Of a DNA stretch of 64,000 nt, positions 55,983 to 64,000 are shown piece after piece. The notes under the pieces were generated by a model, which saw nothing but the letters and a program-made list of their open reading frames with translations, was not told where the DNA came from and searched no databases. The DNA is from Actinoplanes oblitus. Lineage in GTDB: Bacteria > Actinomycetota > Actinomycetes > Mycobacteriales > Micromonosporaceae. Location of the stretch: positions 5,719,501 through 5,783,500 of the forward strand of contig NZ_CP126980.1 in NCBI RefSeq assembly GCF_030252345.1, read 5' to 3'. The position numbers and the translations under genes are program-made. Numbering within the stretch: position 1 is the stretch's first letter; every line of letters begins with the position of its first letter.

Positions 55983-56651
55983 TCAGGGGACGAGCGGACC
56001 CGGCAGCGCCGCCCGGGCGGCCGCAGCGTCGCCGGACAGCTCGGACCAGGGCTTCCTGTTCCACAACGCGAGCATCAAGTCAGGCGCCGGACCGCGCAGC
56101 TCGACCACCGGCTCCCCCGGCCCGAACACCCACGAACGCCCGAGGTCATCAGCGGTGAACCGGACCGCCGCCGCCGGCTCAGCCATCCGCCCCAACTTCA
56201 CCTGGCGCGGCGCGAACGTGTCGAACACCTCGGCCACCCCGTCGCCGCAGAGCTCCGGGTCGAGGCGGCTCGGGATGCCCAGCGCGTGCTGCGCGTCCCA
56301 CCGGTGCACCAGCGTCTCCAGCCACCGGCGCCGCCGCCAGAAGCCCACGGTGCAGGGCGGCCAGAACGTCCACGCCTCGGTCGCCGGGTCCACGCTCAGC
56401 GCCTCGACCAGCCGGCGCGACGTCTCCGCCACATGGGGCGCGATGTCCTCGGGCGCGGGCGGGCTCGCATGACGCCCGTGTCGCTCCCGGACGGCCGCGA
56501 CCACCCACAGGTTGCCCTCGGCGACGTGCGCCGCCAGCTCGCGCAGCGTCCAGTCCCCACAGTGCTCGACCGGCGCGCTCAGCTCACCGCCCAGACACTC
56601 CTGGAACAGCTCCAGCTCCTCCCGGAGCAGCGCCAAGTGATCGATCTGCAT
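55983..56651 (-). CDS. DinB/maleylpyruvate-isomerase-like protein
   Basis: A 222-residue protein of the mycothiol-dependent maleylpyruvate isomerase superfamily: WTLRELAAHVAEGNLWVVAA has the first metal His, WRRRRWLETLVHRWDAQHA the second and third, and the C-terminal MDMPI_C-like domain follows (FTADDLGRSWVFGPGEPV). Actinobacteria hold many such proteins as thiol transferases or of unknown role. The ATG is at MQIDHLALLREE; longer starts were rejected for lack of a ribosome site. Confidence 0.85.
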   Translation of the reverse strand: MQIDHLALLREELELFQECLGGELSAPVEHCGDWTLRELAAHVAEGNLWVVAAVRERHGRHASPPAPEDIAPHVAETSRRLVEALSVDPATEAWTFWPPCTVGFWRRRRWLETLVHRWDAQHALGIPSRLDPELCGDGVAEVFDTFAPRQVKLGRMAEPAAAVRFTADDLGRSWVFGPGEPVVELRGPAPDLMLALWNRKPWSELSGDAAAARAALPGPLVP

Positions 56652-56829
56652 GGCCGGGACTCTACCGCCACCCCCCGACAGAACCGGGCCTCCCCGGATC
56701 AAAGGGCTTTCCGGTACGCGATGTAATCGTCCGACGTCGACGAATATGACTCAGGTGGTATGGCGGTGCCCCACGCCGGGTCACGCAGACTCAGGGCTGT
56801 CTAGACAACTCGGTGAACGGAGCACCCCC

Positions 56830-57963
56830 ATGCCCGTACGTCGTCCCCTCCCCATCCTGCTGTCCGTGCTCGCCTGCCTGCTCGCGCTGGTCGCGGTGCC
56901 GGCCTCGGCCGCGAGTTCGCTGACCGTGGCGCAGGCGATCGCCGGACAGAGCGGTACCGGCACGGTCCTCGGCTACATCGTCGGCGAGCCGACCGCGACC
57001 AGCACGGTCCGGTTCGGTGACTTCACCGGCGACACCGCCCTGGCCATCGCCGACAGCAGGACCGAGAGCAGCACCGCCAGGATGCTCTACGTCCAGCTCA
57101 CCAGCTCCTACCGGTCGGCGTTCGGCCTGCTCAGCAACCCCTCGCTGATCGGCCGGCAGCTGACCGTGACCGGGACGCTGACCGCGTACTTCTCGCATCC
57201 CGGCCTGAAGTCGCCCTCGGCGATGTCGCTGGGCACCACCCCGACGCCCGCGCCCACCCCGTCCGGCAGCACGGACGCCTACTACGCCACCGCCGCCGGC
57301 AAGTCCGGGGCGAGCCTCAAGGCCGCGTTGCACACGATCATCTCGACCGGGGTGACGAAGCTGTCCTACGACGCGGTCTGGGACGCGCTCAAGGTCACCG
57401 ATCAGGACCCGGCCAACTCGTCGAACGTCATCCTCGTCTACTCCGGGCTCAGCCGCGCCAAGTCGCTCAACGGCGGCGACACCGGCGACTGGAACCGCGA
57501 GCACGTCTGGGCCAAGTCACACGGCGACTTCGGCACCGCCGCCGGGCCCGGCACCGACCTGCATCACCTGCGACCGGAGGACGTCACGGTCAACGCCCTG
57601 CGCGACAACAAGGACTTCGACACCGGGGGCAGCGCGGTCAGCGGCGCCGCCGGCAACTACACCGACGCGGACTCCTGGGAGCCGCGCAACGCGGTGAAGG
57701 GCGACGTGGCCCGCATGATCTTCTACATGGCGGTCCGCTACGAGGGCGACGACGGCTGGCCCGATCTGGAGGTCGACGACTCGGTCACCAACGGCACCGA
57801 TCCCTACCTCGGGCGACTGTCGAAACTGCTGACTTGGAACGCGCAGGACCCGCCGGACACCTTCGAGAAGAACCGCAACCAGGTCATCTACGCGTCCTAC
57901 CAGCACAACCGCAACCCGTTCATCGACCACCCGGAGTGGGTTTCCGCCATCTTCGGCAGTTGA
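56830..57963 (+). CDS. secreted endonuclease I-family nuclease
   Basis: A 377-residue exported nuclease. A signal peptide occupies residues 1-29 (PLPILLSVLACLLALVAVPA). Residues 30-130 form an OB-like DUF6359 domain (GTGTVLGYIVGEPTATSTVR), a Pro/Thr linker follows, then an endonuclease I domain with the beta-beta-alpha-metal motif: NREHVWAKSHGDFG, then DLHHLRPEDVTVNALRDNKD, and closing YGHNRNPFIDHPEW-like segment (here YQHNRNPFIDHPEW). It degrades DNA or RNA outside the cell. The next operon begins about 100 bp downstream on the same strand. Confidence 0.9.
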   Translation: MPVRRPLPILLSVLACLLALVAVPASAASSLTVAQAIAGQSGTGTVLGYIVGEPTATSTVRFGDFTGDTALAIADSRTESSTARMLYVQLTSSYRSAFGLLSNPSLIGRQLTVTGTLTAYFSHPGLKSPSAMSLGTTPTPAPTPSGSTDAYYATAAGKSGASLKAALHTIISTGVTKLSYDAVWDALKVTDQDPANSSNVILVYSGLSRAKSLNGGDTGDWNREHVWAKSHGDFGTAAGPGTDLHHLRPEDVTVNALRDNKDFDTGGSAVSGAAGNYTDADSWEPRNAVKGDVARMIFYMAVRYEGDDGWPDLEVDDSVTNGTDPYLGRLSKLLTWNAQDPPDTFEKNRNQVIYASYQHNRNPFIDHPEWVSAIFGS

Positions 57964-58069
57964 CCGGCCCCTGACCGGATGGCGACAGAACACGTGGGCC
58001 GCCGTCCCCGCTTCCTAGCCTGGTGGCTACCGGCGATGGTCCGGTCAGGACCGATGGCGAGGTGACGCC

Positions 58070-60943
58070 ATGGAACTCGAGGTTCCCCGCGTCTGGCTCC
58101 GGCTCAGCTTCGAGCTGCAGGTGGATGGGCAGTTCGCGGTCGGCGTCACCGACCACCGCGGCCGGCGTGTCACACCTCCACGGCCGGGTCGCGGGGCGTA
58201 CGGCTGGGACGACGTCTCGATCCCCGCGACGGAGCTGACGCCGCCACTGGTGCTCCGGCGCCCCACCGCGGTGTGGCGGATATTCCGGGACGCGGTGGGG
58301 GCGTTGCCCGACTTCCGTACCGGAAGCTCCTCCCCACCCGCTCTCCCGATCTTCGTGTCGGTCCCCCGGGAACTCGCGCTCATCCGCTCCGACGTGCTGG
58401 TGTCGCAGGTTCTGCCGCCGTCGAACGAGCCGCCACGGTGGGTCGCTGTCCACGATCGCCCGGCGTTCGGGCAGGTCGCGCCGTTCGTGCTGCCGCTGAC
58501 GATCGTCGGTGTTGGCGAGCGAGGCGCCGACGCGCTGCGGCGGGTCGAGCAGACACCCTGGTCCAGTCCGGACGAGTCGCTGCAGGCGCACCTGGCCGAC
58601 ATCACCTGGCTGGACGAGCCCGCCGACGTGATCCGCCGCCAGCCGGAGGGCGACGTCGACGTGCTCGTGCTGGACGCCTACGACGCCCGGGCGCTGACCG
58701 CCGCGGGGTCCAGTGCGGGGATACGCGCGGCCATCGTGCTCGGGGCCGGCCCGGCCGCGGCGCACACCGACCCGGAGAGTGTGCTGCCACTGGCCCGCAG
58801 CGTGATCACCGTGGCGGGGCCGCCCGACGCCGTCCAGCTCGACATCATCGCTCTGCTGCTGCGAGGCGTGAGCCGCGACCTGCCCCTGCACGAAGCCGTC
58901 CGCGAGGCCGCAACCCACCACGACGCGCAGGGTCGCGTGATCGCCCTGTCGGCCTCGCCCGATGCCCTGCACGACCTGCGCCTGACGGCGGCCTGGGACA
59001 GTGTCGAGGGCAGCGTCGTGGCCCTGTCCGGGACGATCGGCGCCGGCACCGGAAGCACCACGGTGGCGTCGATGTTCCCGCCCGAGCAGCACGAGCTCGG
59101 CAGGTCGCTGATCGCGGACGTCGACGCCGCCCGCCACCTGGAGTTCAGCTTCACCGGGGAGGCGCACGGGCTGATCCCGCTGGCGATCGCGCGCAAGGCC
59201 GTGGCCGACGCCGAGCGGGCGGCCCGCGAGCTCGCCTCGGCCTTCGCGCCCGGAACGGATCCGACGGTGACCCGGGACGGTGTCCGGGTGGTGAACCTGG
59301 GACTGCGCCGGCGCGGCGATCAGGTCGGCCCGCCCGGCGTGCGCACCAGCTACGTCGAGCACGTGTGTTCCCTCGCGGCGGGGCAACGGTACGACCTGGA
59401 GGTGCAGATCGGCGCCGCCTGGCCGCAGAGCCTGGTGGTCGGCGAGCTGCCCTCCGTCGACATGTTGCTGCCCGACGACCGTCGCGGGCACGACCTGCAC
59501 GTCGCCGTCTTCACCGACACGATGACGGTGGTGGGCGAAGCGACCCGGGTGCTGCGGCTGCCGCCGTCCGGGCCCTCCCCGGTGCTGACCTTCCCGCTGG
59601 TGGCCGGGGCGGCCGGCCCGGCGTGGGCCCGGGTGAGCCTCTACCACCGGGACAACCTTCTGCAGACTTTCCGGCTCGACCTGCTCGTCGAGGAGGCGGA
59701 GCGGACGCACCCGGGCATGGTGGCCTCGGCCGGCCTGCAGCACAGCGCCACCCGGGACTGGGGGAACCTCGGCGCACTCGGCCGGCGTGCCCTGTCGCTG
59801 ACCGTCAACAGTGACGGCGCGCGGGGCCATCGGCTGTTCGTCAAGGGCGAGGACCTGGCCGTGACCCTGCCGATCGACCACGACCGCGGCGAGGAGGTCG
59901 CCCGGGAGGTACGGCAGATCCTCACCGCCAACGTGAACCGCGCGATCTCCTCCGCGGAGGCCCTCTGGCGCCTCGCCGTGCGGGGCAGCGACTTGTTCAC
60001 CTTCCTGTTCGACCGCCTCCGGGAGGAGGCCGACGCGCTGGCCGCGGTGTGCCGGCGCGAGGACGAGACGCTGCAGATCATCCGCGCCGACCCGGCCGAG
60101 TCGGTGCCGTGGTCGCTGGTCTACGACTGGGATCTGCCGGACTTCCGCTACGGCGACGAGTCGCCGCCGGTCTGCTTCGGCCGCACCGAGGAGGGCCGGC
60201 GCTGCACGCACCACTCCACCGACGGCGTGGTCTGCGTGTACGGCTTCTGGGGCATCCGCCACCACGTCGAGGAGCTGCTGGCCGCGCCCCGCGAGACCGA
60301 CCTGCCCGGTACGCTGCGGATCACCGAGCCGAGCGTGCTGGTGGCCCTCGGGGTGGATCCCGCGGCGACCGGCGACCTCGTCGGCCGGCTGTCGGCGGTC
60401 TTCCCGCCACCGAGGGTGCGGCACCTGGGCAGCACCGATCGGCTGCTGGACAGCCTGTTCAGCGCCGATCGCCCGGCGGTGGTGATCGTGCTGGGCCACC
60501 ACAAGACCACCGATGTGGTGTCGGAACCGGTGGGCTCGCGGATCGCCCTGCGGACGGCGGACGGGTGGCTGCAGGCCAAGGAGATCACCCGGCGGCGCAG
60601 GCAGAACGGCTCCTGGCAGCCGCCCCAGTCCATCGTGATGCTGCTGTCCTGCGGGTCCGCGGCGCCGGCGCCGACCGCGATGAGCAGCTTCCTCGCCGCC
60701 CTCAACGGGGTGGGCGCCGGTGCGGTGCTGGGGACCGAGTGCGACGTCTATTCCGATCTCGCCGCCGACTTCGCCATCAACGTGCTGGCCGCCCTGGCCG
60801 GCGCCGAGCCGATCGGCCGGGCCCTGCCGTTCGCCGGAGCCGTCCGCGCCGCCCGGCACCGCATCGTCATCGACAAAGGGGACGCCCGTGGCCTCGCTTT
60901 CGCCGCGTTCGGGCCGGCCGAGCTCGCGCTGGTGCGTCAGTAG
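58070..60943 (+). CDS. CHAT-domain protease-like protein
   Basis: A 957-residue protein with no signal or membrane segment. The C-terminal part, about residues 660-957, is a CHAT (caspase-like) domain: ESVPWSLVYDWDLPDF, the catalytic His in VIVLGHHKTT (His810/811) and the catalytic Cys in IVMLLSCGSAAP (Cys861), with the closing ADFAINVLAALAGAEPIGRA. Residues 130-300 look like a second, degenerate caspase-like fold without the His/Cys pair, and 430-550 is beta-rich. CHAT proteases act in signalling and in defence systems such as CHAT-TPR and CHAT-gasdermin. It overlaps the next gene by 56 bp. Confidence 0.85.
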   Translation: MELEVPRVWLRLSFELQVDGQFAVGVTDHRGRRVTPPRPGRGAYGWDDVSIPATELTPPLVLRRPTAVWRIFRDAVGALPDFRTGSSSPPALPIFVSVPRELALIRSDVLVSQVLPPSNEPPRWVAVHDRPAFGQVAPFVLPLTIVGVGERGADALRRVEQTPWSSPDESLQAHLADITWLDEPADVIRRQPEGDVDVLVLDAYDARALTAAGSSAGIRAAIVLGAGPAAAHTDPESVLPLARSVITVAGPPDAVQLDIIALLLRGVSRDLPLHEAVREAATHHDAQGRVIALSASPDALHDLRLTAAWDSVEGSVVALSGTIGAGTGSTTVASMFPPEQHELGRSLIADVDAARHLEFSFTGEAHGLIPLAIARKAVADAERAARELASAFAPGTDPTVTRDGVRVVNLGLRRRGDQVGPPGVRTSYVEHVCSLAAGQRYDLEVQIGAAWPQSLVVGELPSVDMLLPDDRRGHDLHVAVFTDTMTVVGEATRVLRLPPSGPSPVLTFPLVAGAAGPAWARVSLYHRDNLLQTFRLDLLVEEAERTHPGMVASAGLQHSATRDWGNLGALGRRALSLTVNSDGARGHRLFVKGEDLAVTLPIDHDRGEEVAREVRQILTANVNRAISSAEALWRLAVRGSDLFTFLFDRLREEADALAAVCRREDETLQIIRADPAESVPWSLVYDWDLPDFRYGDESPPVCFGRTEEGRRCTHHSTDGVVCVYGFWGIRHHVEELLAAPRETDLPGTLRITEPSVLVALGVDPAATGDLVGRLSAVFPPPRVRHLGSTDRLLDSLFSADRPAVVIVLGHHKTTDVVSEPVGSRIALRTADGWLQAKEITRRRRQNGSWQPPQSIVMLLSCGSAAPAPTAMSSFLAALNGVGAGAVLGTECDVYSDLAADFAINVLAALAGAEPIGRALPFAGAVRAARHRIVIDKGDARGLAFAAFGPAELALVRQ

Positions 60944-63062
60944 GCCCGGCCGGATCACCGGCACGATCCTGCTCGTCCTGGCGCTGGCCGGCGGGCCGCT
61001 GCTGGATGTTCCCGCAGCCGCGGCGGCCGACCTGATCGTGGTCAGCGACGGCACGACCGCCACGCTGCCGCCGAGGGCTTCGGCGATCGTCAGTTTCCCG
61101 CTGACCGCTGCCCCCGGTGTGCCGCTGGATCCCGCGCCCGAGGTCGCGGTGCAGCGGGTCCTGCTCGACAAGGAGCAGCTCGACGTGGCCGGCGCCGTCG
61201 AACCATGGATCACCGCCGCGGTGCCGGCCCTGGAACTCCGGGTCAGCACCGACCGGCTGGCCACACCCGGCGCGTACGAGATCCTGCTCTCGGTGACCCG
61301 CGGCGACCAGCGGCAGCTCGTCACGGTGACCCTGACCCGCCCGCCCGGCCGGGTGGTCACCCCGGCGACGGTCACTGTCAAACGGACCCTGCCGTTGCTC
61401 CCGGGCGGTACGACCGAGGAGCGACTGCCCCGGCTGACGGTGTTCGCCGCGTCGGGGACCCGGCTCGTCACCATGTCCGCGTTCCAGGTGGAACCGGACG
61501 ACCCGCAGATCCGGGTCGGCACCGTCGCGGTTCCCGTCGAGCCGGGCGGCCACACCGACGTGCCGTACACCGTCGCCGGGACCGCCGGCCCCGGGACGGT
61601 GACCCGTACGGTGCAGATCTCCTCACCTCAGCTGAGCGACCCGGTCCCGGTCACCTTCTCGGTGACCACCCGGCGTCATCCCGGCCTCATCGCGGTGTTC
61701 CTGATCCTCGGCGTGCTGCTCGGTCTCGCCGTGCGGACCCTGCTTCCGCGAGCGGCCGCGTGGCGGGCCCGGGAGATCGACCGCAGGCAACTGGAGGCGG
61801 ATCTGACCAGCCTCGCCGGACAGTACCCGGACGAGGAGTTCGGCGCCTTCCTCGCCGAGCGCCGAGCCGCCCTGCACGCGGCGCGCGGCGCCGGGGTGAC
61901 GACCACAGCCGCCGCGATCCGCACCGCTGTCGCCCAGCGGCTGGAGGCGTTGCAGGCCGAGCTGACCGGGCTGGACGATCGGTACCGCGCCCCGGCGACG
62001 ATCCTGCGCTCCGACTGGAGACTGCCGGCGAGCCTGGCCGATGGCGTCGGCGCGGCGCGCGCCGCCCTGGCGCGAGCGGACGCCGCCCTGGACGCCCGCA
62101 ACCGGGGCGGCGCGCGGGACGCGCTGACGGACGTGGACCGGGCGGTCGACGACCTCGTCCGCGAAGCCGGCGACTGGGGTGCCCTGGCACTCGCCGGGCT
62201 CACCGACCTGGCGAACGCCCTCGGCGACCGCGACAAAGGGTCGCTCGGACAGCTGCGGACAGCCGTGCTGCTGGCCCGGAGCGGCGTGCCCGTGTCCGCC
62301 GTGGCCAGTCCCGCGACCACGGCGGACCTCGCCCGGCGCCTGCGCGAGGCGGACCAGACCGTGCAGCGCTTCGCGGCCCTGCGGCCCTACCTCAACGGTG
62401 TCGCCGAGGAGGCCGACCTGCTGGCGAAGACGCTCGCCGAGCACCAGCAGGACGTCGCGGACCTCACCGCGGCGACGCGGTCGGCTCGCGCCGGGGCCCG
62501 CGCCGCCGGCGACGACCCGGCCACGGCGGCGGAACCGCTCGCGCGGGTGATCTCCGAACTCGTCACGGCCGAGCAGGACGCCATCCGGCGTCCGCTGAGG
62601 GCCGCCCAGGAGCCAGCCGTGGACGCCATGCTGGCCAGCGGGGACATGGCGGGCGCGCTGCAGGTGGTACTCGGCAAGCTGGGCACCACGACGGCACCGA
62701 CCAGTCCGGTGCTCCTGGGCGACGAGGCCACCACGATCATGGCGGCGACGCGTACGGTCTCCGAGGCCACGCCGGTGCCCCAGCCGCGGCTGGCGATCCT
62801 GCCGAACCGGTCCCCGGCGAGGGACCGGTGGAACGCGGCGAGCCGCGGCATCGTGCTGGCCGTCGCCGGGGCGGGCGTGCTGCTCGTGCACACGCTGGTC
62901 GCCGTGGCGATCGTGCTGCTCGTCGGCTACGGGCTGTTCCTGTCCAGCTGGACGGGAACGCTCAACGACGTGACGACGATCCTCGTCTGGGCCTTCGCCG
63001 TCGACGTCTCGATCGCCGGCCTCAGCGCTCTGCTGACTCCCACCCCGGCGAGGGCCGGATGA
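60888..63062 (+). CDS. large membrane protein, partner of the CHAT protein
   Basis: A 724-residue membrane protein starting at a GTG inside the 3' end of the CHAT gene, with AAAGGGG 7 bases upstream. A signal-type segment (TGTILLVLALAGGPLLDV) leads into an outside region of two or three beta domains (residues 48-260, FN3-like; TPGAYEILLSVTRGDQ), then a membrane helix at about 263-285 (GLIAVFLILGVLLGLAV). Residues 286-650 are a long cytoplasmic helical, coiled-coil-like region with Ala/Arg/Asp heptads, followed by three C-terminal membrane helices. I know no family for it. It may hold a target or receptor for the upstream protease. Confidence 0.82.
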   Translation: MASLSPRSGRPSSRWCVSRPGRITGTILLVLALAGGPLLDVPAAAAADLIVVSDGTTATLPPRASAIVSFPLTAAPGVPLDPAPEVAVQRVLLDKEQLDVAGAVEPWITAAVPALELRVSTDRLATPGAYEILLSVTRGDQRQLVTVTLTRPPGRVVTPATVTVKRTLPLLPGGTTEERLPRLTVFAASGTRLVTMSAFQVEPDDPQIRVGTVAVPVEPGGHTDVPYTVAGTAGPGTVTRTVQISSPQLSDPVPVTFSVTTRRHPGLIAVFLILGVLLGLAVRTLLPRAAAWRAREIDRRQLEADLTSLAGQYPDEEFGAFLAERRAALHAARGAGVTTTAAAIRTAVAQRLEALQAELTGLDDRYRAPATILRSDWRLPASLADGVGAARAALARADAALDARNRGGARDALTDVDRAVDDLVREAGDWGALALAGLTDLANALGDRDKGSLGQLRTAVLLARSGVPVSAVASPATTADLARRLREADQTVQRFAALRPYLNGVAEEADLLAKTLAEHQQDVADLTAATRSARAGARAAGDDPATAAEPLARVISELVTAEQDAIRRPLRAAQEPAVDAMLASGDMAGALQVVLGKLGTTTAPTSPVLLGDEATTIMAATRTVSEATPVPQPRLAILPNRSPARDRWNAASRGIVLAVAGAGVLLVHTLVAVAIVLLVGYGLFLSSWTGTLNDVTTILVWAFAVDVSIAGLSALLTPTPARAG

Positions 63063-63083
63063 CCGGAATGCTTTGATCTATCG

Positions 63084-64000
63084 ATGATCGACGGGGACGG
63101 CATCATCGAGTACGGGTCGGCGGCGTTCCGGGCGGAGCACTGGCTGGTGCGATTCGTCGGTACCGACGACGGGCGGACGCTTCTGGCGGTCGACCACGGA
63201 CGGGTCGACGTGATCGACATGGCAACCGGCGCGGTGACGACCGGGCCCCGGGTCAAGGCGGTGACCACCCACGCCGATGTGGTGGCGGTGGCGCCGGCGG
63301 ACCGGCCGGACACCGTCACGCTGCTGACCCTGCCGGAGCTGACGCCGCGGGCGGAGTTCGACGCCGGCGGCCCGGTGTACCGGCTGGCGATGAGTGGCGG
63401 GACGATCGCGGCGCTCACCGCCGAGCCGTACACACTGGCCCTGATCGTGGACGGCACCACGCACCGGATCGACCTGCCCGACGAGGCGACCTGCCTCGCC
63501 CTGTCGCCGGACGGGACGCTGGCCGCGGTCGGGACGAACAAGGGTCGTACCGGGAACGTGCTGCTCGTGGACGTGCCGACCGGGACTGTCCGGCACACGC
63601 TGACCGGGCCCCGCGCGCCGGTCACCGCGGTGGCCGTCTCCGCGGCGCACGACGTGGTGGTGGCGGCGGCCGGGCCGCGGGTGCTCGGCTGGACGCCGAG
63701 CGCGAAGAAGCCGAAGGCCACGAGCCTGTGGGTGTCGCCGAAGGACGGCGCGTCGCTGGCCGGGATCACCCCGTCCGGGCGGCTGATCGCCTACTCCTGG
63801 AAGGGGTCGACAGCGGCCGTCGATCCGTCGACCGGGACCGTCGACTGGGAGATCGACTCGTACGGCCCGGTTCTGGTCCACGGCGAGCGGGTCGTCTCGG
63901 TCCGGTTCGGCGACTGCCGCGAGCTCGACCCGTCGACCGGGGCGGTGCGGCACACCTGGACGCACCGCGGATACATGACCCGGTTGTCCGCCGTCGGCGA
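63084..64000 (+). CDS. beta-propeller (WD40-like) protein, cut by the window edge
   Basis: An ATG-started frame (MIDGDGIIEYGSAAFRAEHW) open to the right edge for 305 codons. It shows repeated blades of four strands with Asp-Gly turns (VALSPDGTLAAVGTNKGR-like ALSPDGTLAAVGTNKGRTG; LLVDVPTGTVRHTLTGPRAP; GWTPSAKKPKATSLWVSPKD), as in WD40/PQQ propellers. No signal or membrane segment is visible so far. It starts 21 bases after the membrane protein and is probably co-transcribed, adding a protein-protein interaction module to the CHAT operon. The true length is unknown. Confidence 0.78.
   Translation, partial: MIDGDGIIEYGSAAFRAEHWLVRFVGTDDGRTLLAVDHGRVDVIDMATGAVTTGPRVKAVTTHADVVAVAPADRPDTVTLLTLPELTPRAEFDAGGPVYRLAMSGGTIAALTAEPYTLALIVDGTTHRIDLPDEATCLALSPDGTLAAVGTNKGRTGNVLLVDVPTGTVRHTLTGPRAPVTAVAVSAAHDVVVAAAGPRVLGWTPSAKKPKATSLWVSPKDGASLAGITPSGRLIAYSWKGSTAAVDPSTGTVDWEIDSYGPVLVHGERVVSVRFGDCRELDPSTGAVRHTWTHRGYMTRLSAVG

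Follow-up and report, generated by a model that had tools for sequence, protein, structure and literature searches.

The DNA analysed here (the window, 64,000 nucleotides of the single-contig, 9.8-Mb genome of Actinoplanes oblitus; contig NZ_CP126980.1, G000:C1:5719501-5783500) ends in three genes that are read on the + strand. These encode a CHAT/separase-like cysteine protease of 957 aa (gene 1; 58070..60943), a membrane protein of 724 aa with a GTG start (gene 2; 60888..63062) and a WD40 beta-propeller protein of 622 aa (gene 3; 63084..64000 in the window, ending at window-equivalent position 64952). The end of the protease gene and the start of the membrane-protein gene share 56 bases (60888..60943, +), and a gap of 21 bases leads to the propeller gene—a layout that confirms an earlier reading of this DNA (hereafter, the original prediction)—while a third-codon-position GC of 0.91-0.95 supports the coding nature of all three open reading frames (ORFs). 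We conclude that the protease and membrane-protein genes form a module of two that is real and rare, and that a three-part design and a defence role lie outside what the evidence establishes.

Hydropathy assigns no transmembrane (TM) segment to the protease, and its structural model divides into an N-terminal region (residues 1-130), a caspase-like or Rossmann alpha/beta unit (~135-305), an Ig/MG-like beta sandwich (~404-548), a CHAT1-like part (~556-740) and a predicted active CHAT2-like domain (~749-957). The C-terminal domain of the model has the caspase-type fold that defines CHAT/separase-like clan CD cysteine peptidases, the very feature that the original prediction had named as its structural check. 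The predicted catalytic histidine, H810 (codon 60497..60499, +), and the predicted nucleophile, C861 (codon 60650..60652, +; both coordinates computed from the ORF start), are invariant and occur in this order in all 14 aligned relatives, at identities down to ~21%, which bears out the earlier claim that both sites are intact. Among known structures, Csx29 is the best Foldseek match of the model, while in VIA the protease domain of eukaryotic separase scores best (Z 22.9 with 327 aligned residues, a root-mean-square deviation of 4.5 and 14% identity).

These alignments extend beyond the active domain. Yeast separase (5u1s) aligns over 298 residues within model residues 556-954, versus ~209 residues in the active domain alone, and Csx29 337-750 aligns to model residues 519-953; because such alignments span both units, a caspase-like CHAT1 unit precedes the active CHAT2 domain. 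The names follow Csx29, where CHAT1 is the pseudo-caspase and CHAT2 the active caspase (PMC10028731, in excerpt), and by this reasoning the CHAT1-like unit of the protease would likewise be inactive. For separase itself, a second caspase-like unit is denied in an excerpt of a 2015 modelling paper (PMC4626109). The invariant residues of the CHAT1-like part, C702, C712 and C722 (14/14 relatives; H714 is also kept in 7/7 close relatives), look like a putative metal-binding knuckle. The original prediction had placed an inactive caspase-like fold at residues 130-300; we reject this region as the one pseudo-caspase, since the fold alignments place the CHAT1-like unit, which had been overlooked, at ~556-740, but it may be an extra unit. 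Its hhalign score of 22.2 over 46 columns (P 0.012, but probability just 3.5%) was matched by none of 200 column shuffles (top shuffle 21.1), and its fold list gives Z 8.7 for procaspase-3 versus Z 8.3 for a REC domain, two values so nearly equal that the caspase-like assignment is weak.

The membrane protein is predicted to comprise a signal region followed by an exported Ig-like domain (residues 46-155), a second, poorly modelled beta region (~182-261), a TM segment (263-291), a cytoplasmic helical region (~290-597), a low-confidence linker (~598-645) and C-terminal hydrophobic segments (652-691 and 694-717). Neither Pfam nor NCBIfam returned anything for it.

Homologues of genes 1 and 2 lie on equal-sized contigs in Actinoplanes subglobosus and in Dactylosporangium sp. 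CA-092794. Adjacency was assessed from the protein sequences by asking whether the protease end and the membrane-protein start can be read from the same DNA. The readable overlap is exactly 56 bases both in our genome and in A. subglobosus, and at most 14 bases in the remaining 33 of the 35 homologue pairs and in all 2000 shuffled controls. In a second scoring, against a profile of the protease C terminus, 1 and 0 of 5000 random starts were equally good for our own and the A. subglobosus pair, respectively; the same scoring was uninformative for the remaining three membrane proteins, P0010, P0011 and P0012 (p 0.53, 0.42 and 0.15). An overlap of the two genes is thereby implied in A. subglobosus as well.

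The module is rare and sits at an accessory site. All three genes, together with an adenosine deaminase gene and a DUF6998 ORF, lie within a 9.05-kb segment (57958 to window-equivalent 67012; 57958..64000 in the window) that is missing at this place in a second genome (G043). Immediately upstream is an endonuclease I gene (56650-57963) that is common in the genus (50/67 genomes, E<=1e-60). Stretches next to it were fetched from 36 of the 49 other genomes that carry it, mostly on the downstream side and usually of 20 kb (two were shorter): the conserved genes on the right-hand side (methyltransferase, peptide deformylase) are near endonuclease I in three (G043, G068 and G045), and at E<=1e-15 none of the 36 matched any of our three genes. 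Matches to our positions 57957 and 67013 are just 56 bases apart in G043, so the 9.05 kb represent an insertion or deletion, and in G068 the conserved left and right sides are ~250 bases apart; the ends of the segment share no stretch of at least 9 bases. Gene 1 found matches in 12/354 genomes of the family (E<=1e-3), mostly distant C-terminal ones, with only our genome and G044 matching well beyond the C-terminal half, and in 2/397 genomes of the order (E<=1e-20). For gene 2 the counts were 3/354 in the family, 1/67 in the genus and 1/316 in the class (E<=1e-6), convincing only in our genome; the matches in G089 and G091 covered 53-55 residues near the signal region and were dropped as probably not homologous. 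Profile searches of the genome contigs with both alignments gave no confirmed relative, plasmids yielded two Streptomyces CHAT C-terminal halves for gene 1 (25% identical) and nothing for gene 2, and phages yielded nothing for gene 1.

Other genes of this variable region deserve mention. The adenosine deaminase gene (minus strand, window-equivalent 65044-66519; L002:8544-10019) matches Pfam A_deaminase (E 5.8e-97) and, over its deaminase part, the PADLOC CARF_ADA model (E 1.1e-38); in G033, homologous DNA (87% identity, blastn) is found close to this endonuclease gene, and the protease and membrane genes were not matched there. Right of the 9.05-kb segment, a second variable stretch encodes a 1959-aa protein with an N-terminal trypsin-like peptidase and a NACHT-like NTPase (window-equivalent 67654-73533; L002:11154-17033; PADLOC STAND_TPR, E 3.3e-44).

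The original prediction did not recognise this set of partners, and indeed the protease–membrane-protein pair is named in no library, profile or paper searched, the papers being judged by titles and abstract starts. Among the closest analogues is Csx29 (TPR-CHAT) with Csx30, of type III-E CRISPR, which shares with our protease a CHAT1 pseudo-caspase and a CHAT2 domain with a His-Cys dyad; Csx29 is kept inactive, is activated allosterically by target RNA and cleaves a protein of its own locus (PMC10028731, in excerpt). That substrate is Csx30, whereas the partner here is a 724-aa membrane protein, and Csx29 carries TPR N-terminal to CHAT, whereas our protease matches no TPR family (Pfam, E up to 1) and adds ~400 N-terminal residues and the beta sandwich. 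Pfam found neither Cas7-11/gRAMP nor Csx30 in the seven neighbouring ORFs, to which, within this genome, the search for Cas7-11 was confined. Eukaryotic separase is alike in the fold of the protease domain, at the low identity given above, but differs in that the overlapping gene here encodes a membrane protein. Also comparable are the EACC1-caspase pairs of actinobacteria (System 4), two genes that couple a peptidase of caspase fold to a membrane component, the latter proposed as sensor and as activator of the peptidase (PMC7159879, in excerpt). In those pairs a short, single-TM membrane component comes from the 5' gene, and the 3' gene product has the caspase at its N terminus; here it is the protease gene that comes first, its caspase domain is at the C terminus, and the membrane protein is large and has an Ig-like domain as well as helical ones. 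The order of the genes, the place of the caspase domain and the kind and size of the membrane component are all different, so the pair is not a member of System 4.

Distant actinobacterial CHAT relatives share C702, C712, C722, G725, W727, G728 and the His/Cys dyad where aligned (7/7), yet the large membrane partner was found at none of the actinobacterial CHAT loci beside Trypco2 or small two-TM genes, where ORF lists were filtered by codon-position GC and some genes may be missing. Trypco2 genes adjoin CHAT-like genes in L024, L027 and L029 (Pfam E 6e-14, 1.4e-19 and 1.6e-15). Two distant CHAT proteins (L020:7986-11296 and L025:7806-10255) adjoin genes of 118 or 123 aa that appear by eye to be two-TM and have no Pfam match, possibly a smaller version of CHAT–membrane coupling. 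A different family within the order has a 968-aa protein (L051:7831-10737) that joins leucine-rich repeats, identified by eye, to a CHAT C-terminus.

From this arrangement we infer an accessory two-gene module in which the proteins would interact physically, a tentative model to which we give slightly less than an even chance. Specifically, a cytoplasmic protease of separase/Csx29 type would be co-produced with a membrane protein that has its Ig-like domain outside and a helical platform inside, and would be kept inactive on that platform. The membrane protein would read a signal from the envelope, from an invader or from assembly, and this could then give the H810–C861 dyad its active geometry. 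The protease would cleave a nearby protein, most probably the membrane protein's own cytoplasmic linker (~598-645) or a binding partner of the membrane protein, and the outcome would be stress, defence or death. By analogy with Csx29, the membrane protein may be sensor and anchor, and perhaps substrate; a role in defence or cell death may be suggested by the accessory distribution and by how other CHAT proteases work. The model can do without the propeller gene.

Several points weigh against this model. It draws on sequence and on models of single proteins, not of a complex, and mean pLDDT (predicted local distance difference test) for the membrane protein is just 69. Pfam CHAT (PF12770) matched neither the protease nor its six close relatives at E up to 1, so the protease is placed by its fold, with the dyad and the relatives as further grounds for the family assignment, and not as a Pfam CHAT member. 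For gene 1, Pfam and NCBIfam gave nothing above sub-threshold matches (best, DUF7363, E 0.0087; seen in 3/7 relatives, best E 0.00083), a sequence-profile search of the PDB gave nothing below E 0.7, and PADLOC, up to E 1, matched neither protein. The curated CHAT cut-off is reached by a distant relative in L025 (32.2 bits vs 24), and the two matches above this cut-off in our own genome lie elsewhere (G000:C1:5978711-5979385 and 3436639-3437082; L131, L132). As to linkage, the Dactylosporangium pair permits overlaps of only 4 or 8 bases, and its adjacency, suggested by the equal contig size, is putative. In a partner search that detects only relatives sharing exact words, among the best-scored candidates, no partner is listed for four of the six other protease homologues (contigs of 2.6-12.9 kb) or for two of the four other membrane-protein homologues, likewise on short contigs; the P0003 contig (12,914 bases) should have room enough for one, with none among the matches listed.

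The three-gene operon of the original prediction, with the propeller as scaffold for the other two proteins, is very unlikely even though the gap is 21 bases on the same strand and all three genes share the segment missing from G043. Propeller homologues occur in seven other genomes of the 354 in the family (E<=1e-30; 36-77% identical), and in none of the seven do the fetched flanks show gene 1 or gene 2 (L030 and L031 were read only in part); nor is any of these seven among the genomes that match gene 1 or gene 2. Relatives reach 79% identity, and none of the 16 listed lies on the A. subglobosus and Dactylosporangium contigs with homologues of both genes. We therefore reject the propeller as a core component: genes regularly apart, which the original prediction had named as grounds for giving up the operon, were seen for the propeller, a separately inherited gene in those genomes, so that its scaffold role is unsupported, whereas the linkage of protease and membrane protein is supported. 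The third gene is probably only a neighbour of the pair. At L043 (G019), a 725-aa ORF that starts with a hydrophobic stretch, possibly a different membrane partner, is overlapped by the called ORF of the propeller homologue, and the overlap may reflect an over-long start.

Separase acts on cohesin, and a separase-like protease region thus lends some weight to the reading that the membrane protein is anchor and sensor only, with the substrate elsewhere in the cell and the module serving signalling or stress, not killing. The exported Ig-like domain and the lack of any toxin or pore domain recognisable by Pfam in the membrane protein agree with it, but we consider it somewhat unlikely, as a CHAT substrate (Csx30) is encoded in the same locus as its protease (PMC10028731, in excerpt) and no other conserved neighbour is known as an available substrate. 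Improbable, too, is a structural role for the protease, as a CHAT protein that lacks catalysis and organises a membrane complex (e.g., in cell division or envelope maintenance), given the invariant dyad and a pair that is rare and accessory. Equally improbable is a receptor–caspase pair, in which the Ig-like domain would sense an envelope or invader signal, the helical region would assemble and activate a separase-type protease whose two further caspase-like units are non-catalytic, and cutting of the receptor's linker would free the C-terminal hydrophobic pair to damage the membrane. If true, that reading would describe a membrane-receptor analogue of gasdermin-type suicide, of which the literature searched gave no description. 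As for the CHAT-activated gasdermin systems, in which the partner is a gasdermin pore former, Pfam gave no gasdermin match at E up to 1 in any of five membrane-protein relatives, and good coverage by the fold list is limited to residues 46-155.

Bacterial CHAT proteases are separase-fold proteases, of which, to our knowledge, few partners and substrates are known. The pair looks like a previously undescribed membrane-coupled protease switch, and it indicates that some CHAT-type proteins escape both PADLOC and the curated CHAT profile. Because two species imply that the protease gene overlaps the gene of a single large membrane protein, the latter is a specific, testable CHAT partner; the pair would tie a protease of separase type to the sensing of the envelope and not to signals made of RNA or nucleotides.
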